Part shown: positions 6,441-20,407 of the stretch, one piece after another | Numbering within the stretch: position 1 is the stretch's first letter | Layout of the letters: every line of letters begins with the position of its first letter | DNA from: a virus | Virus record (IMG/VR): IMGVR_UViG_3300032267_000069 | Span: 1-20,453 of that record | Reading direction: 5' to 3' (one strand) | Length of the DNA stretch: 20,453 bases | Translations under genes and position numbers: made by a program | Notes under the pieces: model-generated | Databases searched by the model: none | The model's input: only the letters and a program-made list of their open reading frames with translations | What the model was told of the DNA's origin: nothing

Positions 6441-9400
6441 ATGCCAAAGTACGTAAGGCTTCCAGACAATACGTTGTTCCCGCTTAAAGAGGGAGAAGAC
6501 CCTTCAGCAGCGTTTGCTGAAGCTGAGAAGTTGTACCCGCAGGCATTTGGTTTTACTGAACAAAAAGTTGAGTCTAAAGACACCAAAGGATTCAAAGCTG
6601 CCGCAGCCGCAGGCTTTGAGCGGCTTAAAGGCGAGACTGCGCTGACTGCGGGTAAGTTAGGTTTGATGGACGTTGCGGAAGCAGAAGCCTATCAAAAAGC
6701 CCAAGAAGAAAAAGCCGCTAAACGGTTCACGCCAACCGAAGAAGGTTGGACTGAGGCCCCCTTCCAGAAAATCAAAGAGACTGCTGGCGGTTCTTTGCCG
6801 TATATGCTGGCTCCCGCAGCCGCAGGTGCTGCGGCCTTGGCCGCGCCAGTATCCGCTCCGGTTGCTATGGGTTTGGGTTTAGCAGGCGCGAGTTTGGCTT
6901 CGGCTGGACAGTTCACTGGAACCAACATAGCCCGTCAGATGGATACCGGCAAGACGCTGGAAGAAGCCAGCCTAGCCTCCGCCGTAGGTGCAGCCCTCCC
7001 TCAAGCGGCGTTAGATACAGCGGCTATGGCGTTGTTGCCCGGTGTGGGTAAGTTATTCGGCTCCGTGGGTTCTAGGCTGACAACAGAGCAGGCCAAGGCA
7101 ATTGCGAGCCAGACGCTGGGACGTACGATTGCCGACTACACAGCTAAGACCGGCATGGCTATGGGACGCGAGGGCCTGACCGAAAGCGTGCAACAGGTCT
7201 TGGAACGGCTGCAAGCAGGCTTGGCTATTACCGACCCGGAAGCTCGTAAAGAATACATCGACAGTTTTATTGGGGGGGCCGCGCTTGCGGGTGTTGGGGC
7301 TCCTGTTGGACGTGCGTTTGAACGCAGCGGCGCTAAGAGACAGGCTGAAATGGCCGTGCAAGAAGAGGCTGCAAATGCAGCCGCCAAAGCAGCAGCCGCC
7401 GAGGAAGCTGCCAAGACAACCCCCGAAGCACTTATTAAGCTGGATGACGACTTCCGCGCAGCAAAGCAGCAGCTTGCTGCTATGAACCAAGCGCTGGAAA
7501 CTAAACCCACCAAGCCCCCTAAACCCGCTGACCCGAACTCGGACGAAGCTGCCGAAGCAAAACTGACTTACGAACACGCTAAAGCTGAATACGACATCCT
7601 TAAAAAACAACGCGATGAATTTGTTGCAGAGACTTTTAAACCGTTAGTTGCAGAACACAACAAACGTAAAGATGCAATTGAGTCCATGTATACAGAAAAC
7701 ATGGCGCGTCTTGAACAAGAAGCGGGGCAAGAACAACCCACCGCACCCGGTGCTGTACGTAACACCAACCTCCCCGTGCCAGTAGCACGGTTGATGGATC
7801 AATACGATCAGCTACGTTCCAAACTTGACACGGTTGAAACCAATCTAGCAGCAGCTCCTGATGTTGCAACGCAAAAACAAATTGAAGCGGAACGTGCAGA
7901 CCTGATTAAACGCATGGAGGGCTTGGCCCCTCTGATTGAAGAGCGTGGCGGTGTTACGGCGTCTGAGCAAGATTTCATGAAGCAGCTTGAAAGTGCTGAA
8001 AAGAAACGTCGGGACTTACTGCAAAAGGGGGATTTTGATGCGGCTTCTAAGCAAGCCGATGTAGTAGCAGAGTTACAAGCCAAGCTGCCCCATCTAGAAG
8101 AGTTGCGCGGATTGCGTACGAAGATGGGACAAACACGCGATCTGTTCACAGCAGCAGAAGCCCCGATACCGTCTGCCGAAATTGCAGATGTCGCACCCCC
8201 CACCCCTGTAAAAGGCATGGCAGCAACGCCTGACGAAGCCGCGCCCATACCGCGTGCTGAAAAAGTACAGGCTGCACAAGTTAAATTGGCTGATGCCAAC
8301 ACAGCGTTAGCTGCGGCTGTTGGAGCTAAGAATCCAGAGGGCATCAACCAAGCGTTGCTACAGATCAACGAAGCAGAGAACGAAGTTTCTCGCGCAACTG
8401 AGAAACAGGAACAGGTCGTTAAGCCCGGGCTTGTGTTGGACTTATTTGATCCGGGCAACATCATTCGCACCGCCATCAATAATGGCGACCAAAAAGTTCT
8501 GAGTGATATTGCACGGCATACGGATACGCAGAAACTTAGAGCAGCACTAGACGAAAAGGCCACAGAAAAAGAACGCCTGATCAACGTGCTAGAAAGCAGG
8601 CTAGAGTCCCCCGGCATTAAACGTGAGCGTGCGGATTTGTTTGCGGATTTGTTTGATGCCAAACAAAGAGCACTGTTCACAAACGGTACATATCAAGATA
8701 CAGAGCTACAAGCGCTGTATGACAAAGGCGGCGCAGCCGCAGTTGAGTACGAAGTCATCACACGACAAGTTGCGGATTTATCCAAAAAAGTGACGGCAAA
8801 ACAAGGTAATGCCAAACAGTCTTTGTACGAGCAGCTTGTTGACCTAGCTGCACAGCATGAGGCTATCAAAGCCCAACTTGAGTCCGGTATTGCCGCTCCT
8901 ACAATGGGAGAAAAAGTTGCAGGCGTGCAAGCCCAGTTGGGTAAAGGTGAGGCCCCCGGCCCACGTCAGATGGATGCGGCTGAACGGTATCAACTCACAC
9001 GCAGGCTACAAGCTGTTGAGAATAAGTACAAGCTGGTTGAAGGCAAAGTTATGCCTGTCAGAGACCAAATTCAGAAACTGTGGGACAGTCTGTACACCAC
9101 TAAAGCCGTTGAAAAACCCAGCGCTATTGCTGAGAAAAAACAAGCAGCGTCTGACGCAGAAGCACGCATGCCCAAGCAGATGTCGCGTGAGGCAAAGCGA
9201 GCCCAAAGAATTAATGCCGGGGATGTCCGCCGCGAAGCTGAAGCTTCAGAAAAAATGCGCGACTTGGCGATGGAGTTGGGCCGTAGAGAACCAGCTTACA
9301 AAAAGTTCCTACAAGACAGTAAAAAAAGGCTTGACACGTTAGTTAAAAAGTACGGCAGCGGTGACGATGCGGTGTCTTCATACAAAGCAGAAGTTCGCTC

Positions 9401-12400
9401 CAAGATGGAGGAGTTGTCCGCATCGCTGGGTAAAAAGACTCCTGAGTACAAGGCGACATTGAAAGAGCAGATTGCCTATGTTAAAGAAGCGTTTGCCAGC
9501 GCTGGCAAACAGGAAATAAAAAGCAAACGCACCACACAAGAAACACGCCGCCAATCTGCTGCCCCTAAAACACTGCGTGTGGCTGGTAGCAGGATGTCTC
9601 AAGCTGAGATTGAAAAGGAAGTTCGAGAAGCTAACGATGCGGATGGTGGTGTAGCTTATAGGTTGCGTGAGAGCGATGCCGAGACTACGGTCGATGCTGC
9701 CGAGGCGCAGAAAGTTATAGACGGGCTGAAGCTGCCCGATAACGTCAAGTTTGTGTACGCCGCCACTCCGGGCAAGATTCCGCTGCGGTTGCTAAAGATG
9801 ATGCAGACTGACGGTATCGATCCTATGGACGGCATGGTGCAGGGCGCTGTATTCCCAGACGGTACGGTCTTGGTTGTGGGAGATCAGCATGCCGATGTAA
9901 CGGACTTGGAGCGGACAATCGCCCACGAGATCATCGGGCATTACGGTGTAGACACCGTAATTGGTCTTGACCGTTTGAATGGGTTTGTCAGAAAAACTGA
10001 CATTATTTCTCTCGCTGAAAAAATTGGCGGCGACAAGTTGGTCAAAGAAGTGCTTGAAACCGTAGCCGCCAATGCCCGCCTTGGTCGCAGCGAAGAAGTG
10101 CAAAAGTTGCAAGGTATGCGCGAAATTATTGCGCATACAGAGGAGGCCCGTGTTACCGAAGGGTTCCGTGACAAAGCTAAGCGGTGGATCAACGAGTTGG
10201 TGGGTATGGTGCGCGAAGGTCTGCGTGCTATGGGCCTTAAAAACTTGAACGCATTGTCTACGTCAGACGTGTTCTACATGCTGAAGAAATCCCGCAAGGC
10301 TTTTGAGAACAAGACAATTGGACCATACCGTGCTGCTGATGGCGAAACAGCGTTCCGTTTGAAACGTGATCCACAACCTTACAAGTCGGTTGGTAAAGAA
10401 CCAAGCGTTGTTGACACTTTCCTCGGTAACGTCATGGGCTTGGCCGGGCGTGTTCAGTTTGTAGATCAGTACGCAGCACTTGAGTCAGCATTAAAGAAAG
10501 GTCTGAGTGCAGGTCAGATCAGCAGTCTTGAGGCTACAAACGCCAACTACTTGCTACGTTTTGGGCAGCAGCGAAGCCAGTTTGCAGGACAGTTTTTGAC
10601 GAACGGCCCCGTTAAGTTAGAGGTTACCAAAAAGCCCAACGGGGTTGAGAGCCTGTACCGCAGCACCAAAGGCGTGTCTATGACGGACATAGCCAAGAAA
10701 CTAAACGAAGCAGGCATCGGCAACGACACAGAACAAGAAGCCATGTTTACCCTGTATGTGGCAGGCAAACGGGCTAACCAAGTAGGTTGGAACAAGCTTA
10801 ATTTTTCAGACCCTGCTGCCGCAGAAGACGACTATATTGATGTGCTAAGCCGTTTAAACGGTGATGCAAAAGCAAAGACCGCCTTCGAAGAAGCCGCCAA
10901 GCTGTATCAGCAGTACAACGCAGGTTTGCTAGATTTCTTGGTAGATACCGGGGCGCTGACTTCTAAGAAAGCTGCCGAGCTTAAGTCCGTTACATATGTG
11001 CCGTATTACCGCATCAACAATAACGGTGAAGTTCAGTTGATGATTGACAAAGAAACGCCCGTACGTATTTCTAACATCAAGGACGAGCCGCAACTTAAAG
11101 AGTTGGTGGGTGGCAACACCGCCATTTTGCCCATCTTTACAAGTTCCGTGCAGAACACGTTCATGATCACAGGCATGGGGCTGCGCAATCAGGCGGTTAA
11201 AGAAAGTGCTTTTGCTTTGCAGAAGATAGGTATTGCGAGTCGTGTGGCTCAAGGCAAAGGACCGCAGGGCGCTAACATAGTTCGTTTCAAGAAAAAGGGC
11301 GAAGACTACTACGCTTTGATTGATACGGATCAGTACGGTATTCCGGCTGAATTGATTGTGCGTGGTATGGAAGGTATCAAGACTACGCTGCCCGCCGTTA
11401 TCAAAATGCTGGGCATACCCGCAGACTTGTTGCGTTCTTTTGTTGTGCGCAATCCATCGTACGCTTTCCGTCAGATCATCCGCGACCCGCTGAATGCTTG
11501 GTTGACTACAGGAACCGATGCAACGCCCGTACTTAGCTCCATGAAAGAACTAGCTAGTATGGTAGCTGGCCGCAGCGAAGCTGAGCGCAAACTTATGGCA
11601 ACGGGGGCTATTAGCAGTAACGTGTTCTCCGGCGACGAGCGTGACATGTCTAAGTTCCTCAAGGATGTGTCTGCTGGTAAGTCTGGGTGGGATAAAGCGA
11701 TAGCTAAGTTGGATGCCTTTGCTATGCAGGGTGATGCTGCTACCCGCGCGGTCATCTACAAGGACTCTCTGGCCAAGGGCATGTCGGAACAAGAAGCGCT
11801 GCTGCGCACGTTGGAGTCCATGAACTTTAGCCGCCGTGGTGTGTCGCCTAGCATGCAGGCGCTGTCGATAATGATCCCGTTCTTTAACGCACAGATTCAA
11901 GGTTTTGATGTTTTGTATCGGGCCTTCAGCGGCAAAATGCCTTTTAGCGAACAGCTTAAGATTAAAGAGAAGTTGATTACGCGCGGGCTAATGCTGGCTG
12001 CTGGAACGATGGCTTATGCCGCCATGATGTCCGATGATGAAGCCTACAAACGTGCCAAGCCAGAAGAGCGTTACTCTAGTTGGTTTGTGTATGTGCCCGG
12101 TTTGTCTGAGCCTTTGCGCATACCAATTCCTTTTGAGTTGGGTTATTTATTTAAAGCACTGCCAGAGGCTGTGTACAACATGGCTGTAAACGATGAGAAG
12201 GCCAGCAAGGCTTTGGGCGGTATGGCGAAGCTGTTGGAGCAAACCAACCCATTCAGTTTGCCGCAAGCTGTTAAGCCGCTGACAGAGGCGATACTGGGTA
12301 AATCGTTCTTTAGTGGCGACATTGAGTCTGCTAGAGAGAAAAGCATTTTGGCTACAGAACGCTACCGCGAGAGCAGCACAGAACTGTCCAAACTTCTTGG

Positions 12401-12920
12401 GTCTGTTACAGGGGGTGTTGGCGTAAGCGCCATCACAATCGACCATTTGATCCGTGGCTACACTGGGCCTCTTGGGATTGCCCTTGTGTCATTGGCTAAC
12501 CCGTTGCTGGCGTCTGACGCGCGTGCTGAAATACAAAAGCCAACCACGAAACTTAGCAAGACACCTTTTATCGGTGGGCTGTTTCAACCTGTTGAAGGTC
12601 GCGGTACTTTGGATGAAGCCTATGACCGTATGGAAGAGGTTAGGCAAGTCAAGGGTGCGTACAACAACATGCTTAAGGAAGGCAGGCGTGCCGAGGCACA
12701 GGCCTTTGTGCAGAGATATGCAGACGAAATCGCATCAGCATCGCTTTCGGGAGCCGTCCAGAAAAGTCTGGGAGACTTAGCGGCGTTGGAGCGCAAAATA
12801 CGCAGCCATCCAACCATGACCACCGAAGAGAAAGACGAGCGTCTGGCAAAGATAGATGCGATTAAGTTGCAGAGGGCCCGGAGTTTCTTGGCGGCGTCCG
12901 ATAGAACCAAACCCCAATAA
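6441..12920 (+). CDS. Giant polyvalent/internal virion protein with HEXXGH peptidase-like motif
   Basis: 2159 residues from ATG 6441, with only a weak AGGT at 6432-6435 as ribosome site. In order: a short start (MPKYVRLPDNTLFPLKEGED); Gly/Ala-rich apolar helices at about 115-160 and 180-210, possible membrane or channel segments; a long charged coiled-coil region about 300-1090; HEIIGH at 1162-1167 with EIIAHTEE at 1228-1235; an all-helical stretch; and from about 1660 to 1960 a region (RNPSYAFRQIIRDPLNAW, NFSRRG, IPFFNAQIQGFD, WFVYVPG) resembling the LPD38 domain of phage 'large polyvalent proteins'. HEXXGH with a downstream Glu is the zinc-site pattern of M49 (dipeptidyl peptidase III) enzymes; H1162, H1167 and E1228 or E1234/E1235 could be ligands. 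As last gene of the virion operon it is probably packaged and ejected with the DNA, like large core proteins of T7-type phages, but sequence similarity to those is not evident. Confidence 0.85.
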   Translation: MPKYVRLPDNTLFPLKEGEDPSAAFAEAEKLYPQAFGFTEQKVESKDTKGFKAAAAAGFERLKGETALTAGKLGLMDVAEAEAYQKAQEEKAAKRFTPTEEGWTEAPFQKIKETAGGSLPYMLAPAAAGAAALAAPVSAPVAMGLGLAGASLASAGQFTGTNIARQMDTGKTLEEASLASAVGAALPQAALDTAAMALLPGVGKLFGSVGSRLTTEQAKAIASQTLGRTIADYTAKTGMAMGREGLTESVQQVLERLQAGLAITDPEARKEYIDSFIGGAALAGVGAPVGRAFERSGAKRQAEMAVQEEAANAAAKAAAAEEAAKTTPEALIKLDDDFRAAKQQLAAMNQALETKPTKPPKPADPNSDEAAEAKLTYEHAKAEYDILKKQRDEFVAETFKPLVAEHNKRKDAIESMYTENMARLEQEAGQEQPTAPGAVRNTNLPVPVARLMDQYDQLRSKLDTVETNLAAAPDVATQKQIEAERADLIKRMEGLAPLIEERGGVTASEQDFMKQLESAEKKRRDLLQKGDFDAASKQADVVAELQAKLPHLEELRGLRTKMGQTRDLFTAAEAPIPSAEIADVAPPTPVKGMAATPDEAAPIPRAEKVQAAQVKLADANTALAAAVGAKNPEGINQALLQINEAENEVSRATEKQEQVVKPGLVLDLFDPGNIIRTAINNGDQKVLSDIARHTDTQKLRAALDEKATEKERLINVLESRLESPGIKRERADLFADLFDAKQRALFTNGTYQDTELQALYDKGGAAAVEYEVITRQVADLSKKVTAKQGNAKQSLYEQLVDLAAQHEAIKAQLESGIAAPTMGEKVAGVQAQLGKGEAPGPRQMDAAERYQLTRRLQAVENKYKLVEGKVMPVRDQIQKLWDSLYTTKAVEKPSAIAEKKQAASDAEARMPKQMSREAKRAQRINAGDVRREAEASEKMRDLAMELGRREPAYKKFLQDSKKRLDTLVKKYGSGDDAVSSYKAEVRSKMEELSASLGKKTPEYKATLKEQIAYVKEAFASAGKQEIKSKRTTQETRRQSAAPKTLRVAGSRMSQAEIEKEVREANDADGGVAYRLRESDAETTVDAAEAQKVIDGLKLPDNVKFVYAATPGKIPLRLLKMMQTDGIDPMDGMVQGAVFPDGTVLVVGDQHADVTDLERTIAHEIIGHYGVDTVIGLDRLNGFVRKTDIISLAEKIGGDKLVKEVLETVAANARLGRSEEVQKLQGMREIIAHTEEARVTEGFRDKAKRWINELVGMVREGLRAMGLKNLNALSTSDVFYMLKKSRKAFENKTIGPYRAADGETAFRLKRDPQPYKSVGKEPSVVDTFLGNVMGLAGRVQFVDQYAALESALKKGLSAGQISSLEATNANYLLRFGQQRSQFAGQFLTNGPVKLEVTKKPNGVESLYRSTKGVSMTDIAKKLNEAGIGNDTEQEAMFTLYVAGKRANQVGWNKLNFSDPAAAEDDYIDVLSRLNGDAKAKTAFEEAAKLYQQYNAGLLDFLVDTGALTSKKAAELKSVTYVPYYRINNNGEVQLMIDKETPVRISNIKDEPQLKELVGGNTAILPIFTSSVQNTFMITGMGLRNQAVKESAFALQKIGIASRVAQGKGPQGANIVRFKKKGEDYYALIDTDQYGIPAELIVRGMEGIKTTLPAVIKMLGIPADLLRSFVVRNPSYAFRQIIRDPLNAWLTTGTDATPVLSSMKELASMVAGRSEAERKLMATGAISSNVFSGDERDMSKFLKDVSAGKSGWDKAIAKLDAFAMQGDAATRAVIYKDSLAKGMSEQEALLRTLESMNFSRRGVSPSMQALSIMIPFFNAQIQGFDVLYRAFSGKMPFSEQLKIKEKLITRGLMLAAGTMAYAAMMSDDEAYKRAKPEERYSSWFVYVPGLSEPLRIPIPFELGYLFKALPEAVYNMAVNDEKASKALGGMAKLLEQTNPFSLPQAVKPLTEAILGKSFFSGDIESAREKSILATERYRESSTELSKLLGSVTGGVGVSAITIDHLIRGYTGPLGIALVSLANPLLASDARAEIQKPTTKLSKTPFIGGLFQPVEGRGTLDEAYDRMEEVRQVKGAYNNMLKEGRRAEAQAFVQRYADEIASASLSGAVQKSLGDLAALERKIRSHPTMTTEEKDERLAKIDAIKLQRARSFLAASDRTKPQ
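8631..8654 (+). repeat. Perfect 12-base tandem duplication
   Basis: GCGGATTTGTTT occurs twice in direct succession inside the giant gene, adding a repeated Ala-Asp-Leu-Phe pair to the protein. It is in frame and looks like a recent slippage or duplication event. Confidence 0.7.
9491..9510. repeat. Perfect 20-base palindrome inside the giant gene
   Basis: GTTTGCCAGC is followed immediately by its own reverse complement. It encodes FASAGK in the coiled-coil region. There is no loop, so it is more like a dimeric protein site or cruciform than an RNA hairpin. Confidence 0.7.
9940..9961. repeat. Inverted repeat, 10-base arms with 2-base centre
   Basis: ATTACGGTGT, AG, ACACCGTAAT. It lies directly over the codons after the HEIIGH motif of the giant protein. 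All ten arm positions pair. Confidence 0.7.
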
Positions 12921-12942
12921 AGCCGTCTCTGATTGCCACGTA

Positions 12943-12980
12943 AGCCCGCGCATCGAAGATGCGGCAAGCAAGGGCCGCAT
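12943..12980 (+). other. Overlapping hairpins downstream of the giant gene
   Basis: CGCATC-GAA-GATGCG (12949-12963) and ATGCGGC / GCCGCAT (12959-12965 with 12974-12980, eight-base loop) share bases, so only one can form at a time. The second is followed by TTTAAT. Together with the terminator they fill the gap 12921-13042, which has no convincing ORF. Confidence 0.45.
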
Positions 12981-13013
12981 TTAATCCCGCAACACGTACT
13001 GCGTCCGTGTCGA

Positions 13014-13043
13014 GGCAGGGGACGAAAAACCCCTGCCCCTTTT
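13014..13043 (+). terminator. Rho-independent terminator of the virion operon
   Basis: A perfect 8-base-pair stem GGCAGGGG / CCCCTGCC (13014-13021 with 13030-13037) with loop ACGAAAAA is followed by CCTTTT. The T-tract lies on the + side only, so it terminates the + strand operon. Its last T is the first base of the opposing gene's stop codon. Confidence 0.75.
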
Positions 13044-15934
13044 CAAGTCTCATCCACGGATGCTTGACTACCAATAGCTTCTTCATGGTTGCTGATTCTT
13101 CGGCTAATCTTCATTGCGGATACGCGCATAGGCGGTGCATCTGTCTTGGACATCATGTCTTTCTTAGGCACGTAACTCACAGTGAACTGCGCCTCTAGCT
13201 GCTTCTTCAGATTGGAATAGCTAAAGCTCATATTTGAGCAGAAGGACTTGAGTAGACGTTCTTCTATAAAGAAGTCGATGCAGCCCGCAGTAACGCCGTG
13301 CTCTACTCGCCCCATCACATCCGCTCTTGTCGTGGTCTTACCCACAGACGTACCATCATGGAAGTGAGCCAATGGCCCCGCCTTATCGCCATACTTAACC
13401 ACAACGAAGCGGCCTTGGTACTCTTGGATGAACGCATTAAGCACATCCTCTGCGCTGCGCTTGCCACCTTTGATACTAACACGCATGCTGTCGATGTGAC
13501 GGCGTAGGCTGTCGATGATCTCTTGCATGGGTATGTCAACCACATTGGCATGTTTCTCGTTAAGCAGGATACCCGCAGCCACAGCACACGCACAACCCGC
13601 CATCCAGAAGCGCTCATCATTGGGGGCGTTGAACTCGTCGTACATCTGCCGTATGGTTTTGGGCAACAGCGTCTTGAGGTAGTCCACGTTACTTACGAAG
13701 TACCGCACCAGAACATCGCCAACTACAGCGTAGTTGTTCTGTAGGGACTTGATGACCTCTATCTCCTCAGTGTTCCAGTCCAGCTTCTCATCCATGCCGT
13801 ACTCTATCAATCGGCGCAGTTCACCTTCAGAAGAGTGCTGCCTAGCACCCGTCATGTAATCCACGGCGGGGCGGTTCGATGACATGATGGCAATGGTCTG
13901 CCATATGGACAGGTTCAGACGTTCTTTGTTTGCGCCTGACTCCATACGTTCCTTGCCGCGCCCTTCGCTCATACTGAAGAGGAAGGCAGGGAACCACTCA
14001 AAGTCCACACGGTTGTTGGTGGTGATCTCATCCGTGATAAGTGGGTTGCTGCGCAGCAAGCCAAGCCGTTGCTGCATAGCTACGGCAGAAGTTCCCGACC
14101 CAGTGCGGTAGTGCACCGGATGCCCCCATACAGAAGCCGCAGTATCTAGCGCCAAGGACTTGCCAGTACCCGACTCGCTTGAGGCGCAGTGGACCGTCAT
14201 GCCGTACAGACCTGTGAAGCGCATCAACGGAGCGCCAGCACCGAACAGCAGAATCGCAAGGTGATCCCACATCTTGCGCCTGATCATCATGTTGACGACT
14301 TTGACCCAGTTCTCAACTACACCAGTAGGCTTGGTGTTGGCGATGATGTTCTCTAGTCCGGGCATAGGGACTTCGATAGGCTCCTCACCTTTTCTGTAGA
14401 TGCACCCGGCAAACACGTAGCTGTCATCGTCCTGCCAGCCGTAACTCTGCGGAATTACTATGGGGTTCTTTTCAGTACTCAGCTTCTCCACACAGGCGCG
14501 GATGTAGTCGTACAGGTTCTTGTCGTTGCCAGCCCCAAACGAAGCAACGATGTTCTGGTTCATCAGGTATTTGATCGTCTCGTCCTTACTCGCTACCGCT
14601 TTCTGCGGGAGCATTACTTCTTGGACGATGCTGTTACGTGTCGCAAACAAGTGAACTAAGTGGTCACCACCGTTGTTCAGGATGTCTATAGGAAACACGT
14701 CATAGGGCAGAAGCATCACGTGCTTCTTGGTGATGTTGCCCTGCTGGTCTATGTCTTCTTTCTCTACAAACACACCACCGTTCTGACCGTAGGCATAGCC
14801 ACGTGGTGGTTCAGGACGCAGTACTGAGCGGCTTTTCTTCTCAGGTACAAGCGAGACTTCAACAACTTTAGCTTCCGTGCTGACCGCAGTCTCGCGCCCC
14901 AACGCCAACGGGTTAGTGATCTTGCCCCAGTGCGGACACTTCTCACAAACACCGGGGTTGATGGAGTCGAACGACACGCAAGAGTACGGCCCCTTGATTT
15001 GGTCCAGCTTCTGACGCATGCGCTCATGATCGTACGGATGTAAGTCGGACAACCAAACCGCAGCCTTCTGCCCGTCTTCGCACTTCTGAGCGATGCTCAG
15101 TGTGGCACGCCATAGCGGCTCCATCTCTTCTTCAGCAGCGTTCTCGATGTAGTGCAGAATTTGACCGCAGCCTAGCCCGTCCTTCGTTTTGTGCAGGATG
15201 GTTTTAAACTTGGTGTGGCTGTTCTCGAACAACTTAACCGCTGTAGCAGAGTGTTTGACACTGGTTGGCTTGGTCCCCGGCAGTTGCAGCGATGCCGCTG
15301 GCAACGCCGGTACTGGAGACTTGAGCCCGCTGATGATGAGGCTCGACAGGTCTTGGAAGTCGAACGTATCCCCTTTAGCTAGTAGGCGGACTGGGCGCGG
15401 CGTAGCGTACTTAGCCTTGAAGTTGGTGGTGTCAGGCACACGCAGGATACGCGCTGCATCAGCAGTCACGCTCATGTCGATACGCATATCTTCCTGCTTG
15501 CACAGGCGCTTGAACGCTTCGGCTACAGGCTTCCACCGAGCAACCTCCACGTCCTCAGTCAACGGCCAGTACACGTGCAGCCCACCACCAGACCCCACGA
15601 TGTACGGCGTGCCAAGCAGGTCGAGACCCGTCTTAAACATGAAGGACTTAAGGGACTCCGCTGCTTCCTTCTTGGACGCATAACCGTCCATATCAATAAA
15701 CAGACTGCGCAAGAATCTAGCGTTCTCAGCTTTGCGGCTCCCCGCTTCGGCAAATGTAGCTAGTGCGAAGTAACAGTCTTTCTTGCTATCGTGCCAAGAT
15801 GTTATGGGCGTTAGTAAATTCTCCAGTGCTTGTTCAAAATCGTGCTCCTTTTTCGTTTTTGTATAGCCAACTGCACAGTAGTACCCGGAACCCGGGGACG
15901 GCAGGACTACCGCTAGAAACTCAAGCGGGGTCAT
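13043..15934 (-). CDS. Primase-polymerase (AEP-like) / superfamily 3-like helicase fusion
   Basis: 963 residues; GAAGGA precedes ATG 15934 in the 14-base gap after the upstream small gene. The N-terminal ~200 residues match an archaeo-eukaryotic-type primase-polymerase: FIDMD (D81, D83), GSGGGLHVYW (H120) and RIDMSVTADAARILRVP (D153), so metal and nucleotide residues appear intact. A Cys/His cluster follows (C319, C330, C333, H335; C256 nearby), probably zinc-binding. The second half is an ATPase: ESGTGKS (K592), Walker B LITDE (D635, E636) and a sensor-like IMSSNRP. The segment between, about 380-540, resembles the region preceding the ATPase in DUF927-type phage helicases; that is tentative. 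The C-terminal ~110 residues could be a winged helix. It should synthesise primers and unwind DNA at the phage fork. It is the last gene of the - strand operon seen here. Confidence 0.88.
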   Translation of the reverse strand: MTPLEFLAVVLPSPGSGYYCAVGYTKTKKEHDFEQALENLLTPITSWHDSKKDCYFALATFAEAGSRKAENARFLRSLFIDMDGYASKKEAAESLKSFMFKTGLDLLGTPYIVGSGGGLHVYWPLTEDVEVARWKPVAEAFKRLCKQEDMRIDMSVTADAARILRVPDTTNFKAKYATPRPVRLLAKGDTFDFQDLSSLIISGLKSPVPALPAASLQLPGTKPTSVKHSATAVKLFENSHTKFKTILHKTKDGLGCGQILHYIENAAEEEMEPLWRATLSIAQKCEDGQKAAVWLSDLHPYDHERMRQKLDQIKGPYSCVSFDSINPGVCEKCPHWGKITNPLALGRETAVSTEAKVVEVSLVPEKKSRSVLRPEPPRGYAYGQNGGVFVEKEDIDQQGNITKKHVMLLPYDVFPIDILNNGGDHLVHLFATRNSIVQEVMLPQKAVASKDETIKYLMNQNIVASFGAGNDKNLYDYIRACVEKLSTEKNPIVIPQSYGWQDDDSYVFAGCIYRKGEEPIEVPMPGLENIIANTKPTGVVENWVKVVNMMIRRKMWDHLAILLFGAGAPLMRFTGLYGMTVHCASSESGTGKSLALDTAASVWGHPVHYRTGSGTSAVAMQQRLGLLRSNPLITDEITTNNRVDFEWFPAFLFSMSEGRGKERMESGANKERLNLSIWQTIAIMSSNRPAVDYMTGARQHSSEGELRRLIEYGMDEKLDWNTEEIEVIKSLQNNYAVVGDVLVRYFVSNVDYLKTLLPKTIRQMYDEFNAPNDERFWMAGCACAVAAGILLNEKHANVVDIPMQEIIDSLRRHIDSMRVSIKGGKRSAEDVLNAFIQEYQGRFVVVKYGDKAGPLAHFHDGTSVGKTTTRADVMGRVEHGVTAGCIDFFIEERLLKSFCSNMSFSYSNLKKQLEAQFTVSYVPKKDMMSKTDAPPMRVSAMKISRRISNHEEAIGSQASVDET

Positions 15935-15948
15935 AACAATCCTTCAGG

Positions 15949-16140
15949 TTACGTGGTCAGGAAAAGATCAAGTTGTCGTTCGTCTTTGGGCGGGAATTCA
16001 TCTAAGGGGGCTAGTGCAATAAAGCGGTTCAGCAACTCAACTTGCCACAAGTAGTCTAGACCTTCGGCGCTGTCAAGTTGGTTGGAGCAGTGGGTGATCA
16101 ACTCTTTGTTGCTCAAGGTTCTAGGTTGTATTCTTGACAT
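15949..16140 (-). CDS. Small protein with C-terminal sliding-clamp-binding peptide QLDLF
   Basis: 63 residues (MSRIQPRTLSNKEL...ERQLDLFLTT). ATG 16140 is chosen over an in-frame TTG at 16152 because GGAG at 16150-16147 is its ribosome site and lies inside the TTG extension. The body is a predicted helical domain with WQVELLNRFIALAP. The last ten residues hold QLDLF, an exact match to the bacterial beta-sliding-clamp-binding consensus QL(S/D)LF, in an exposed, charged, C-terminal position. The gene overlaps the HTH gene upstream by 28 bases and precedes the primase-helicase by 14, so it belongs to the replication operon. It is inferred to recruit the host clamp to phage replication or to block it for host DNA. 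The domain itself is unrecognised. Confidence 0.8.
   Translation of the reverse strand: MSRIQPRTLSNKELITHCSNQLDSAEGLDYLWQVELLNRFIALAPLDEFPPKDERQLDLFLTT
15961..15975 (-). other. QLDLF sliding-clamp-binding motif codons
   Basis: The codons CAA CTT GAT CTT TTC on the - strand give QLDLF, three residues from the C-terminus of the 63-residue protein. Confidence 0.7.
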
Positions 16141-16391
16141 ATTTTTCTCCAAGCATCGTCCGCAGTGCGTGACGATTGCATAATTTTTAAAAGAAGCTCT
16201 ACACGATTTTGGTAAGCGATAAACACGTCCTTACCCTGAAACCAGTTGTAGACCGTTTGTCTTGTGACGCCAAGTGCTGCCGCTATCTTTGTAACTGGGA
16301 AGTTAAGATGTATCGCCCATCGCCCCAACTGATTGCCGGGGGTTTTAGGCGCTGACAGCACGGTATCTATTGTTTTATTTGAATAAGCCAT
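16113..16391 (-). CDS. Small helix-turn-helix DNA-binding protein
   Basis: 92 residues. Residues about 31-52 (FPVTKIAAALGVTRQTVYNW) are a textbook helix-turn-helix with the recognition helix VTRQTVYNW, followed by FQGKDVFIAYQNRVELLLKI, as in small Cro/C1-like or Mor-like phage regulators. The protein is too short for a repressor with a separate oligomerisation domain. The gene overlaps the start of the QLDLF gene by 28 bases, implying coupled translation. No Shine-Dalgarno sequence is visible before its ATG: the - strand upstream reads CGAGTACCCCCACCCAAT. A short ORF (16375-16449) overlaps its start and may supply ribosomes. It is probably an operon regulator or origin-binding protein; which of these cannot be told from the sequence. 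Confidence 0.75.
   Translation of the reverse strand: MAYSNKTIDTVLSAPKTPGNQLGRWAIHLNFPVTKIAAALGVTRQTVYNWFQGKDVFIAYQNRVELLLKIMQSSRTADDAWRKICQEYNLEP
16147..16150 (-). promoter_or_regulatory. Ribosome binding site fixing the start at 16140
   Basis: GGAG on the - strand, six bases before the ATG at 16140; it decides for the 63-residue form of the QLDLF protein. Confidence 0.65.
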
Positions 16392-16470: not shown

Positions 16471-17454
16471 TTACTCGTCGTCCCAGTCAGCCACGATGTC
16501 GGCTAACTTGCTTTTCTTAGCAGGTACTGTGGTCTCTTTAGTTGGGGCTTTGCGAACTTCCGGCTCATCGTTCTCGTCTTCCTCAACTACAGGAGCGGCC
16601 TTGGCTTTCTTGGCTTTCTCCGCCTTTTCAGCTTTCTCCGCAATCGGTGCATACGCAGGTGCGTCTTCCTCTTTGGTCAAATCACCCATAGGGCGGCTGC
16701 CTTCGAGCTTCAGGGGTTCTGCTTTGGCGCTGGGTGGAGCAACAGTCATAACCACCGCACGCTTGGCATCCTCAGAATTGGACTGCTCCAACACAGTTTC
16801 GTACTCGGCATCCTCTAACCAGCGAACGGGTTGGAAGTACAGCTTGGGGCTTTCAGCCTTGGTATCGAAACGCATGCGTGTAACGATCTGCTCGGGATTG
16901 ATGGGCGGGCTTTGCAATGCCAAGTAACGAGCGAACGCTTGGAGCGGACGCTTGTCTCCCTCTTCTTTACCGAAGATAGAAGTCGCTGGCAGCGTAAGCT
17001 GCAACACATCCCCTGTGGGGTTATCTGCCAACACAACGGCAAGGCGCTGTTGGAAGCGGCAAGCACGGCTGTTGTTCTGTCCTGAACCTGCTACGTTTTG
17101 TGGGCATGCCATGCATGTGCTGCACTGTGGGTCTTTGATAGAAGCGTCTGGTTTTTCACCATCGTTGCTCCAGCAATCAGGCCCTGCAATGTTCTCTGCG
17201 TCATAGGACTTAGCATAGAAAATGCGGTTGACCTTGGGGGCTGCCTTAACAATGATCACGTCAAGATGTCGATCATCAATCGATGCGATTTCTTTACTGC
17301 CAGCTACCAGACGGAACACACCACCTTTGATAGAGATGCGCTTGGTGCTCTGTATGGTGCTGCCCCCTGTAAGGGCTTTAGCTGTCTCAGACAGTTCATT
17401 GTTACGGGCGAATGCGGGAACTTTAGATGCGTTAAAAAGCGTTACGTTACTCAT
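16471..17454 (-). CDS. Single-stranded-DNA-binding-like replication protein with acidic tail
   Basis: 327 residues. The N-terminal ~220 residues look like a beta-rich binding domain: RISIKGGVFRLVAGSKEI, VIIVKAAPKVNRIFYAK, LQLTLPATSIFGKE and LYFQPVRWLED. It contains a cysteine group (C94, C111, C114, C117, C132) in GPDCWSNDG...CSTCMACPQNVAGSG...RACRF that could bind zinc. Then follow a low-complexity linker of repeated EKA/KKA units and an acidic end finishing ADIVADWDDE. A folded basic core plus an acidic C-terminal tail is the plan of phage and bacterial SSB proteins, where the tail recruits partners. From memory, related phage proteins of this type sit beside primase-helicases. It lies four bases after the preceding gene. 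The SSB role is inferred and not certain. Confidence 0.7.
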   Translation of the reverse strand: MSNVTLFNASKVPAFARNNELSETAKALTGGSTIQSTKRISIKGGVFRLVAGSKEIASIDDRHLDVIIVKAAPKVNRIFYAKSYDAENIAGPDCWSNDGEKPDASIKDPQCSTCMACPQNVAGSGQNNSRACRFQQRLAVVLADNPTGDVLQLTLPATSIFGKEEGDKRPLQAFARYLALQSPPINPEQIVTRMRFDTKAESPKLYFQPVRWLEDAEYETVLEQSNSEDAKRAVVMTVAPPSAKAEPLKLEGSRPMGDLTKEEDAPAYAPIAEKAEKAEKAKKAKAAPVVEEDENDEPEVRKAPTKETTVPAKKSKLADIVADWDDE

Positions 17455-17458
17455 GAGA

Positions 17459-17863
17459 TTACTTTCTAGACTTGGTTACACGAATGTCGAACTCAGTTAC
17501 TGAGTTCATGCCCGGTGGTAAAACCCCCGGATTTTCTTCAAGGAAGGTCGCCATGTTGGTCTGTGCGATGCGCTTCTCCAGCAAATCCAAAACATCATGC
17601 TCAAGAATAAAGCTCTTGAATGCGTCCCAGTCTTGCGTGTTGTAACGCGTCTTAGTCACCAAGGAGACCGTCCCAGAAGTAGTATTGACCGTCTTCAAAC
17701 CTTCGGCTTTCATCCGGTCTTTTATAGCCATGCGTATTTCAGCACGCTGTTCTTCAAGCGCTGCGATCTGGCTATCTAAAGCCTCAATCTTGCTCTTGAT
17801 CTTTCCATGAATACCCACCAACCTATCTATGTTGATGTCGTCTTCACTGTCCTTTTCGTTCAT
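17459..17863 (-). CDS. Coiled-coil phage protein of unknown function
   Basis: 134 residues from ATG 17863. An in-frame TTG at 17887 is rejected because GGAG at 17873-17870 is the natural ribosome site for the ATG. Residues about 13-55 form a coiled coil (IDRLVGIHGKIKSKIEALDS onward, QIAALEEQRAEIRMAIKDRM). Then comes a small alpha/beta part with TTSGTVSLVTKTRYNTQDWD, FLEENPGVLPPGMN and a terminal EFDIRVTKSRK. From memory, proteins of this size with the 'DWDAF...LPPG' pattern are common next to SSB-like genes in phages, but I know no established function. It sits four bases before the SSB-like gene and may act with it. Confidence 0.72.
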   Translation of the reverse strand: MNEKDSEDDINIDRLVGIHGKIKSKIEALDSQIAALEEQRAEIRMAIKDRMKAEGLKTVNTTSGTVSLVTKTRYNTQDWDAFKSFILEHDVLDLLEKRIAQTNMATFLEENPGVLPPGMNSVTEFDIRVTKSRK

Positions 17864-17869
17864 TGCTTT

Positions 17870-17873
17870 CTCC
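17870..17873 (-). promoter_or_regulatory. Ribosome binding site fixing the start at 17863
   Basis: GGAG on the - strand, part of the block GGAGAAAGCA that is repeated exactly before the helicase gene at 19498-19489. Confidence 0.65.
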
Positions 17874-17896
17874 AATTTTGTTGTCAAGGGTTAGAC

Positions 17897-17934
17897 AGTT
17901 TACAGGGATTTTATAGCTTTGCAACTCCTTTCAA
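17897..17934 (-). promoter_or_regulatory. Candidate internal promoter before the coiled-coil/SSB genes
   Basis: The 67-base gap 17864-17930 is the AT-richest in the operon. On the - strand it offers TTGAAA (17934-17929), 15 bases, TAAAAT (17913-17908), and alternatively TTGCAA (17924-17919), 16 bases, TAAACT (17902-17897). Both are imperfect sigma70-like pairs. They would transcribe the coiled-coil, SSB-like and downstream genes. Confidence 0.3.
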
Positions 17935-19487
17935 GAATTAATTTCGTGTTCAAACATTTGAGTCAGTAGTGAGTTGTCACTTACTTTCCCTTCGAGCGCT
18001 TTGAACATACGCTTCTCTATTGGTGAGCCTTGAATGTGCACCACCGTAACTTTAGTGGAGTCCTGTCCTTTGCGGTCAGCCCGAGCAATACACTGAATGT
18101 ACTGCTCCACACTCATCAGAGGACCGTAGAACACCACCGTATCCGCAGCAGTCAACGTGATACCGTGCGCAGTAGCCTGCGGCTGCATGACCAACACCCG
18201 TGGGTCTTTGTGTTTCTGAAACCGTTGGATGATGTCGCCTCGTTTGGTGGCCGTCACACCGCCGTGGATAGTCTCTGTTGGGATACCACGCTTGTTCAAG
18301 TGGGCGTGGATGGCATCGATGGTGCTGCGAAACATGGCGAAGATAATAACTTTGCGGCTCGTCTCATCAAGAATCTCTTCCAACACCGCCAGCCTTGGGG
18401 CAGCATCGAACTCGACAACCTCTTTGTCATCCGTGTAGGCAGCACCGCATGAAATCTGTAACAGCTTGCTCACTCCAGCAGCGGCGTTGACCGCAGTGAT
18501 GGTTTCTCCCGCAGCCTGTACGAGCATCTTGTCTTTGAGCATGTCGTAGTACTTCTTCTGTTGCTGTGTCAACGGCACATCACGCGTCATCGTAATGACC
18601 GGCGGTAGGTCAAGGCACTGTTCTTTAGTGAATCTAATGGCGGGTTGCAGTGCTTCATGAACAAGCTCTGATGCGTTGGGTTTGGGAGCCCACTTAAACA
18701 TGGTGATCTTGTTCATCACTTGATCGCGCCAAGATGTAAAGAACTTAGGTATGTTGTCTGGGTTAACCAGCTTGGCCAAACCATAAGCATCCGCAGGCGA
18801 CTGCGATGCGGGTGTCCCCGTCATCATCCACAGCATCGTGTCTGGGCGTACGATGGACTTGAGAGTCTTCCACCGTTTCGTTGTGATGGTCTTGTATGCG
18901 TTGGCTTCGTCCACGATGATGAGATCAAACTTACCGTTGGCGTTAATCTCTTCCGCTATCAGGTTGAGCCCGTCATAGTTGCAGATCACAAATTCGTAGT
19001 CTTGTTGGATCATCTCTATACGCCGACTAGCCTGCGCGTGGTGCGCAACTATGGCGGAGCGGTGGATGATGCTATTGTTCAGGTCACCTAACCAAGCGCT
19101 GTGCATGATCGATAGGGGACACAAAATTAAACAACGTCTGACATCACCGCGCTGCATCAAGTAGTCCGCCGCCCATAGTGCCGATAGTGTCTTGCCTGTC
19201 CCCGGCTCGCTGAACACAAACGCTTTCTTATGCAGCGTCAGGAACGATGCCGTTTCTATCTGGTGCTCCATCGGCTTGAACTTGCCGGGCCACTTGTACC
19301 GTCTAGTGATGGGGGATGGTGCGTTCTTGACCCCTAAGTTTCTGAGCACGCGCACTTCATCCAAACCCCAGAACACCGCAACCTCATAACCGCCGTTGCA
19401 CGGCGTGATTTTGTGTTTAGGTATGACGCTGTATTTATGTGGGTTTCGCGTTCGGAATAGTAAGGCTTTGTTATCAACAATCTCCAT
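17931..19487 (-). CDS. SNF2/DEAD-like superfamily 2 helicase
   Basis: 518 residues; GGAGAAAGCAG precedes ATG 19487, sixteen bases after the HNH gene. Motifs in order: Q-like KPMEHQIETASFL (~71-83), Walker A SEPGTGKT (93-100, K99), motif II VDEAN (192-196), motif III MTGTP (222-226), motif V QATAHGITLTAADTVVF and motif VI QCIARADRKGQ with R469 as likely arginine finger. This is a compact SNF2-type translocase without accessory domains, similar in size to phage helicases used in fork remodelling or recombination (compare the role, not the sequence, of UvsW). Motif II ends in Asn rather than the usual His. It is likely to act with the nuclease upstream and the SSB-like protein downstream. The family assignment is firm; the specific role is inferred. 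Confidence 0.9.
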   Translation of the reverse strand: MEIVDNKALLFRTRNPHKYSVIPKHKITPCNGGYEVAVFWGLDEVRVLRNLGVKNAPSPITRRYKWPGKFKPMEHQIETASFLTLHKKAFVFSEPGTGKTLSALWAADYLMQRGDVRRCLILCPLSIMHSAWLGDLNNSIIHRSAIVAHHAQASRRIEMIQQDYEFVICNYDGLNLIAEEINANGKFDLIIVDEANAYKTITTKRWKTLKSIVRPDTMLWMMTGTPASQSPADAYGLAKLVNPDNIPKFFTSWRDQVMNKITMFKWAPKPNASELVHEALQPAIRFTKEQCLDLPPVITMTRDVPLTQQQKKYYDMLKDKMLVQAAGETITAVNAAAGVSKLLQISCGAAYTDDKEVVEFDAAPRLAVLEEILDETSRKVIIFAMFRSTIDAIHAHLNKRGIPTETIHGGVTATKRGDIIQRFQKHKDPRVLVMQPQATAHGITLTAADTVVFYGPLMSVEQYIQCIARADRKGQDSTKVTVVHIQGSPIEKRMFKALEGKVSDNSLLTQMFEHEINS

Positions 19488-19503: not shown

Positions 19504-19737
19504 TTATTTGTTATCGCCTTGGTTTGCTGATTTGTTTCGCAGTCTCAGGTTGCCCGGAGTAGTCTTGCCGCCTTTACGTAGCGGCACTTTGTGGTCGATG
19601 TCTTTGCCTGCACGGTCAATACCTTTTTTGTCGTACAACCTGCGGGCCTTCTGCCGTTCAAGTTGATCTTCGGTCTCACCGTTTTTCTTTTGAAGTTTGT
19701 AGGCGTGTTTGTAATCACGCTTGCCGTTTGTCTGCAT
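19504..19737 (-). CDS. Small HNH endonuclease
   Basis: 77 residues from ATG 19737; AGAGG at 19749-19745 with seven-base spacing decides this start over longer in-frame possibilities that would overlap the Cas4-like gene. The motif is IDHKVPLRKGGKTTPGNLRL (D48-H49, N63) followed by N72, giving the His-Asn-Asn pattern accepted in phage HNH nucleases. The N-terminal part is basic and helical (DYKHAYKLQKKN..DQLERQKARRLYDKKG). No cysteine-bound zinc knuckle is present. It could be a genome-processing nuclease or a free-standing homing-type nuclease; position inside the replication operon, directly after the Cas4-like nuclease with a one-base gap, favours a stable operon member. Confidence 0.8.
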   Translation of the reverse strand: MQTNGKRDYKHAYKLQKKNGETEDQLERQKARRLYDKKGIDRAGKDIDHKVPLRKGGKTTPGNLRLRNKSANQGDNK

Positions 19738-19738
19738 G

Positions 19739-20407
19739 TTAGTTCCTCTTAGTGTTGTACTCGCAAGTCTTGACCGAGCACCACCCGCATAGGGGTGTCG
19801 GCTTGGGGTTCCACACATTCGTCTCGTGCGCCTTCTCGATACGAGCAACCCGTTCGCGGTAGTCCGCCCACGCATCGGGGGCTTCACCCACCAGCATACT
19901 GGACTTCACCATGTCGTTCTTTAAAACAAACAGCAGTGCCGAAGTCACGCGCCGTATATGCGGGAAGTGCGTGAAGACCATGAGCGACATCAACGTCAAT
20001 TGATCCCTGTCAGGATACTTGTTGTTGCCTGTCTTGTAGTCCACCACACGTGCGGTCAGGTTGTCATCATCGATGATGATTAAGTCAGCAATACCACGCA
20101 CCCATCGGTTGTCGTCGTTGAAGTCACACGGACGTAAGTCCTCGGTAACGCCCATCTCGTACTCGCACAGTTTCCTGCCGGTCTTGGCCTTGAGGGCGTC
20201 TAGTGTGTCTTTAAGAAACTCGAAGTGTGTGGGTAGTGGCTTGTCGCTTTTGATGTAGTGCTCAGCAGCGTCGTGGAATTCTTTGCCGTACAACGTGGCT
20301 TGTGTGTCTTGGAACGTGTAGTTCTTAAGAACTTTAACCTCGTGGTATCGGCGGGCGCAGCCCTCATAGTCTTTGAGAGCGCTGTGACTCCACGTAATCT
20401 TGCTCAT
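19739..20407 (-). CDS. Cas4/RecB-like PD-(D/E)XK nuclease with Fe-S cysteines
   Basis: 222 residues; GAGG six bases before ATG 20407. Residues 5-21 (TWSHSALKDYEGCARRY) and H45 match the start of RecB-family nucleases. The catalytic core is GIADLIIID (D108) then RVVDYKTG (D123, K125), followed by DQLTLMSLM with Q136 as the downstream helix motif. C17 together with C207, C210 and C215 (LCGWCSVKTCEY) is the four-cysteine arrangement that holds an iron-sulphur cluster in Cas4 and AddB. No cas1 or repeat array is nearby, so CRISPR adaptation is not indicated; the likely job is 5'-end or duplex resection in phage recombination/replication, or host DNA breakdown. The stop is one base before the HNH gene start. 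Confidence 0.87.
   Translation of the reverse strand: MSKITWSHSALKDYEGCARRYHEVKVLKNYTFQDTQATLYGKEFHDAAEHYIKSDKPLPTHFEFLKDTLDALKAKTGRKLCEYEMGVTEDLRPCDFNDDNRWVRGIADLIIIDDDNLTARVVDYKTGNNKYPDRDQLTLMSLMVFTHFPHIRRVTSALLFVLKNDMVKSSMLVGEAPDAWADYRERVARIEKAHETNVWNPKPTPLCGWCSVKTCEYNTKRN

Follow-up and report, generated by a model that had tools for sequence, protein, structure and literature searches.

A small phage protein with a conserved clamp-binding motif at its C-terminus, a candidate adaptor to the host sliding clamp

Does a phage that carries its own replication enzymes still make use of the sliding clamp of its host? The question is raised by a small gene in IMG/VR record IMGVR_UViG_3300032267_000069, of which positions 1 to 20,453 were analyzed (the window, 20,453 bp in all). 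The gene runs on the minus strand at 15,949–16,140, from an ATG at 16,140 to a TAA at 15,951–15,949 (stop included), and encodes a protein of 63 amino acids (MSRIQPRTLSNKELITHCSNQLDSAEGLDYLWQVELLNRFIALAPLDEFPPKDERQLDLFLTT) whose C-terminus reads DERQLDLFLTT. A 63-residue reading frame at this location, ending in QLDLF and then LTT, had been proposed from the sequence alone (hereafter the original prediction), and it is indeed present on the minus strand; the plus strand over 15,949–16,140 contains stops and no open frame. The QLDLF codons (CAACTTGATCTTTTC) lie at 15,961–15,975 on the minus strand. A Shine-Dalgarno-like GGAG (16,147–16,150, minus strand) stands 6 nt ahead of the ATG, within the gene of an HTH protein, the 3' end of which overlaps the start of the small gene by 28 nt. 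Because this GGAG stretch is conserved, many relatives read xEKNM in the frame of the small protein. On the other side, 14 nt separate the stop from the ATG of a primase-helicase gene at 15,934, so the gene does lie directly before the primase-helicase, as originally described, and the codons of its tail fall outside the primase gene.

We first ask whether the motif could have arisen by chance. Of 1,000,000 shuffles of the 63-aa protein, 102 placed QL[D/S]LF no more than 6 residues from the end; this figure is post hoc, and conservation is therefore the real test. In a first scan, all 30 relatives ended in Qx[D/E]LF. A profile scan with patterns that did not touch the motif found at least 288 relatives in viral contigs, of which 80 were kept, and the 50 distinct proteins collected by then all had the motif at their end. 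Two further scans were made, in which one pattern covered the Q of the motif and none its L or F. In total, 70 distinct close relatives were recruited without the motif as a requirement, and Qx[DENS]LF was found 0–6 residues from the C-terminus in every one of them (HMM search, all loci). The Q, L and F are 100% conserved in this set, while position 2 may be L, Q, K, R, G or I and position 3 may be D, E, N or S, such that both consensus forms, QLDLF and QLSLF, occur within one family. The Q, L and F codons differ synonymously among relatives; thus selection acts on the protein. Among 7,590 other open reading frames of the same contigs, the motif occurred in only 2, with 0.7 expected from shuffled tails. 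The motif in the 63-aa protein is no chance match. The expectation of a conserved tail with a varying remainder is also upheld: the N-terminal part diverges in the wider family described below, and all 70 close relatives keep the motif.

The conserved residues resemble those of known clamp ligands. QLDLF conforms to the canonical Q-phi-x-[L/M]-[F/L] or Q-phi-x-[L/M]-x-[F/L] consensus; it is the strongest pentapeptide among clamp ligands, and QLNLF is the motif of Pol V (PMC11139829). The strict consensus wants an aliphatic residue at position 2, and some relatives depart from it with K, R, Q, G, P or H; the position tolerance reported for clamp ligands resembles the variation at positions 2 and 3 of this family (PMC11139829). 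From these sequence features, the tail of the small protein very probably binds the host beta clamp (DnaN).

An AlphaFold2 monomer model, built on a 37-sequence alignment, divides the protein in two. The N-terminal domain (16,012–16,110, minus strand) is predicted to form two helices at residues 11–22 and 30–43. The tail, residues 44–63 (15,952–16,011, minus strand), has no helix or strand in the model, and its block mean pLDDT declines from 71 to 64 to 52. The motif is thus predicted to sit in an exposed, flexible segment, in line with the flexible context originally supposed. A Foldseek search of PDB folds with the model found nothing significant, which is unsurprising for a fold of two helices.

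To look beyond the close relatives, we anchored a wider sample on the neighboring primase-helicase and inspected the gene directly upstream in 80 loci. The tail carried a pentameric motif in 57 (QLDLF, QLELF, QLRLF, QLPLF, QLNLF, QIDLF, QKDLF, QRDLF, QPELF, QQALF or QHALF), a hexameric motif in 11 (QLELDF, QLELDL, QLKLDF or QLELPL, the last as QLELPLF) and no motif in 12. Clamp ligands accept both pentameric and hexameric forms with Leu/Phe anchors, and in a published phage display the most abundant peptide had QLELDF as its core (PMC11139829). Throughout the wider family the tail persists while the N-terminal part retains about 15–40% pairwise identity (minimum 15%, median 38%), and the spacing between the second helix and the motif varies. 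An outgroup-rooted primase tree places the motif in the ancestor of the clade and requires two changes to the hexameric form and two losses; the tree was made with FastTree, and its deep branches are therefore tentative. Homologues lacking the motif had been named beforehand as an outcome that would count against the proposal. They do occur: two nested losses account for 12 of the 80 loci (a clade of 11 and locus L314), and one further locus, L345, also lacks the motif. No clear substitute clamp motif was found in the replication modules of the motif-less clade that were examined, so the link to the clamp appears dispensable in some lineages. One candidate for such a substitute, a 53-aa open reading frame in contig G028 whose reality is uncertain, ends in QLRLFHL. 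Among homologues in MAG contigs, one from Gammaproteobacteria has the tail QLPLPF-NE, again a hexamer, and one from Chitinophagales has no motif. The switching between pentamer and hexamer, together with the two losses, fits selection for the beta-clamp pocket.

The gene is embedded in a replication operon. Across 109 loci, within the reach of each contig, its gene order does not change: PolA, 100 aa, exonuclease, HNH, SNF2 helicase, coiled coil, ssDNA-binding-like, HTH, small protein, primase-helicase and 70 aa. The 109 include some overlapping stretches of one contig. The window holds most of this operon, all on the minus strand. Immediately upstream of the small gene in 109 of 109 loci is the HTH protein (92 aa, 16,113–16,391; Pfam HTH_23, E 6.8e-6). 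Downstream, and adjacent in 104 of 109 loci, is the primase-helicase (963 aa, 13,043–15,934; PF06048 (DUF927) and the PHROG DNA primase/helicase), the 3' end of which is overlapped by the gene of a conserved 74-aa protein (12,862–13,086) that is present in 72 related loci and has no Pfam match. Further upstream lie a probable ssDNA-binding protein (327 aa, 16,471–17,454; phrog_27714, weakly Gp3-like, 107 of 109 loci), whose role we infer; a coiled-coil protein that is Pam3 gp33-like or Gam-like (142 aa, 17,459–17,887; PF23984); a SNF2-type helicase (17,931–19,487; PF00176, PF00271); an HNH endonuclease (19,504–19,887; weak PF01844); and a PD-(D/E)XK exonuclease (19,739–20,407; PF12705).

Several other features of the region deserve mention in their own right. 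The ssDNA-binding-like protein has a conserved acidic aromatic tip, LADIVADWDDE, which reads LADVVGAWDDED or LADIVSDWDDE in relatives and FAGWDD in Pseudomonas phage Rollin; its DWDDE is likely another C-terminal docking peptide. PHROG labels the coiled-coil protein at 17,459–17,887 a minor head protein (phrog_13900), and given its place within the replication operon this label is probably wrong. On the plus strand, 6,441–12,920 encodes a 2159-aa protein with an LPD38 domain and a HEIIGH zincin-like motif, of the large polyvalent phage protein kind. Rfam detected no RNA family in the window.

Which polymerase would such a tail serve? The original prediction pointed out that no phage polymerase is visible. 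This is true within the window; it fails as an argument, since in relatives the gene of a family A DNA polymerase lies just upstream, past the point at which the contig ends. The record stops inside the operon, just after the exonuclease, and the polymerase is thus out of view. Two sets of related records gave a family A polymerase in 16 of 20 and in 18 of 27; Pol III alpha was seen in 0 of 20 and a phage-encoded beta clamp in 0 of 47, though many records are fragments and these missing genes are not proof of absence. None of 11 phage PolA copies checked contained such a motif. Within those motif-bearing modules that were checked, no gene but the small one convincingly encodes a clamp motif at the C-terminus. 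A 104-aa zinc-ribbon-like protein of a distant sister phage, encoded right after the primase (L131, 9,990–10,304, plus strand), has PEQLNLF at its end; this tail is missing from the relative in L132 and is possibly an independent gain of a clamp motif beside a primase. Two short open reading frames end in QLRLFHL (L347, 8,402–8,563, plus strand) and GKQLELFN (L114, near 2,723, plus strand), and these could be further clamp ligands or chance occurrences.

The family has so far escaped annotation. Pfam, NCBIfam and PHROG gave no consistent profile match, the best being weak and confined to at most 2 of 37 members, and with no PDB match either, the statement that the rest of the protein belongs to no recognized family stands. 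A search of annotated phage genomes with the window protein and the family consensus yielded no relative, the one match (E 0.6) lying inside a terminase, and a search of bacterial genomes with the small protein yielded none. Rhizobium phage RHph_TM3_14A and Pseudomonas phage Rollin have relatives of the primase and no such protein upstream of it, so the family appears limited to the clade around the window. No phage family of this kind was found described in the open-access literature. With at least 288 close relatives in viral contigs and at least 590 relatives of the adjacent primase, this so far unnamed protein family of environmental phages is abundant, and the clamp motif offers a functional handle on it.

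Taking these observations together, we propose that the small protein is a stand-alone adaptor, in which a two-helix domain and a flexible clamp-binding tail connect the replication module of the phage with the host beta clamp; we put the probability of this reading at roughly 60%. The two-helix domain would most likely grip a phage replication protein, be it the primase-helicase, the HTH protein or the family A polymerase, while the flexible tail would insert QLDLF into the hydrophobic pocket of host DnaN. Phage machinery whose polymerases, where examined, are devoid of a clamp motif, and for which the searches turned up no phage clamp, would thereby be tied to the host clamp, and as an outcome the polymerase may gain processivity, or clamps may be delivered to phage primers. 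What we infer in this model is that the tail binds DnaN, that the helical domain holds a phage partner, and that the protein acts as a recruiter. Three features favor the adaptor: the constant operon placement, the link with the HTH gene, and a phage polymerase that comes with neither clamp nor clamp motif. Some lineages drop the tail and keep the helical domain, which indicates that this domain has a function apart from the tail, as would suit an adaptor holding a phage partner. More tentatively, and with the odds against it, the protein may be a dedicated processivity adaptor of 60–70 aa through which a phage family A polymerase and primase-helicase that lack a clamp come to work with the host beta clamp; it would then be a counterpart of thioredoxin for T7 polymerase, with the host sliding clamp used instead. 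Phages with their own family A polymerase may thus still use the host clamp, and the pentamer, hexamer and lost-motif lineages constitute a natural experiment on the value of the clamp link for phage replication.

The main rival to the adaptor is a competitor for the host clamp. The original prediction offered a clamp recruiter or an inhibitor; the conserved tail and the replication-operon setting agree with it, and the constant placement favors the recruiter or adaptor over the inhibitor. In host takeover, the small protein would fill the clamp pocket and displace host Pol III, the clamp loader or repair polymerases, which would make clamps and nucleotides available to the phage. Every clamp ligand could face competition from a small protein that presents the motif alone, the motif is often in its strongest-binding form, QLDLF, and one phage clamp inhibitor is known, Gp168 of Twort (PMC11139829). 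We nevertheless regard inhibition as rather unlikely: the gene always lies within the replication operon, between HTH and primase, and not among variable accessory genes; a pocket blocker would equally block the phage's own use of the clamp; and Gp168 acts at the DNA channel and not at the pocket (PMC11139829).

A sub-case of the adaptor is an initiation factor, in which the HTH and clamp-motif proteins form one complex that binds the phage origin and recruits the host clamp there, much like TrfA. The 28-nt gene overlap and the constant pairing in 109 loci agree with such a complex, and TrfA requires its clamp motif for replisome assembly at a plasmid origin (PMC4980987). However, no origin or HTH binding site was identified, and overlap alone is no proof of a complex; we consider this specific form unlikely. 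It is more improbable still that the C-terminal motif serves another partner or another constraint, with no clamp binding. Part of the linker, D-P-x-Q, is conserved as well; against this, the switching between pentamer and hexamer, the interchange of QLDLF, QLSLF and QLNLF, and the restriction of variation to tolerant positions all match the clamp pocket, and the tail overlaps no downstream gene. We know of no other target with such a pattern of switching, interchange and tolerance. Finally, a toxin–antitoxin pair with the small protein as a SocB-like clamp-binding toxin is very improbable, as the pair occupies a core place in the replication operon at every locus, despite its overlapping genes with HTH first, the weak YdaS and HTH-antitoxin profile matches of the HTH protein, and the listing of a Caulobacter toxin that collapses forks among clamp partners (PMC4980987). 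A temperate, addiction-module reading was also considered and rejected: no tyrosine integrase was found in 15 records of related phages, which leaves such a module little to maintain.

How does the proposed adaptor compare with known systems? The CBM ligands of the beta clamp (Pol II, Pol IV, UmuC of Pol V, PolC, Hda and MutS) likewise present Q-phi-x-L-F or Q-phi-x-L-x-[F/L] in a flexible segment, and in Pol II and Pol IV the motif is C-terminal, as in the small phage protein (PMC11139829). Those ligands are enzymes or large regulators, whereas the phage protein is a stand-alone polypeptide of 60–70 aa with no enzymatic domain. SocB of Caulobacter, by description, is alike in that it binds DnaN through a clamp motif; unlike the phage protein, it is a chromosomal toxin that is degraded with the SocA adaptor. 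The comparison with staphylococcal phages made at the outset is a loose one: Gp168 of Twort is a phage protein aimed at the host clamp, but it prevents clamp loading by obstructing the DNA channel (PMC11139829), which sets it apart from a protein with a canonical pocket motif. A functional precedent is TrfA, the initiator of plasmid RK2, which is also a replication protein of a mobile element that needs a clamp motif for host replisome assembly (PMC4980987). TrfA is a large iteron-binding initiator with its motif around residue 137–138, in contrast to the two short helices of the phage protein, in which Pfam, NCBIfam and PDB comparisons detected no TrfA-type iteron-binding winged-helix Rep domain. 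And unlike the situation of TrfA, the phages considered here own a family A polymerase and a primase-helicase.
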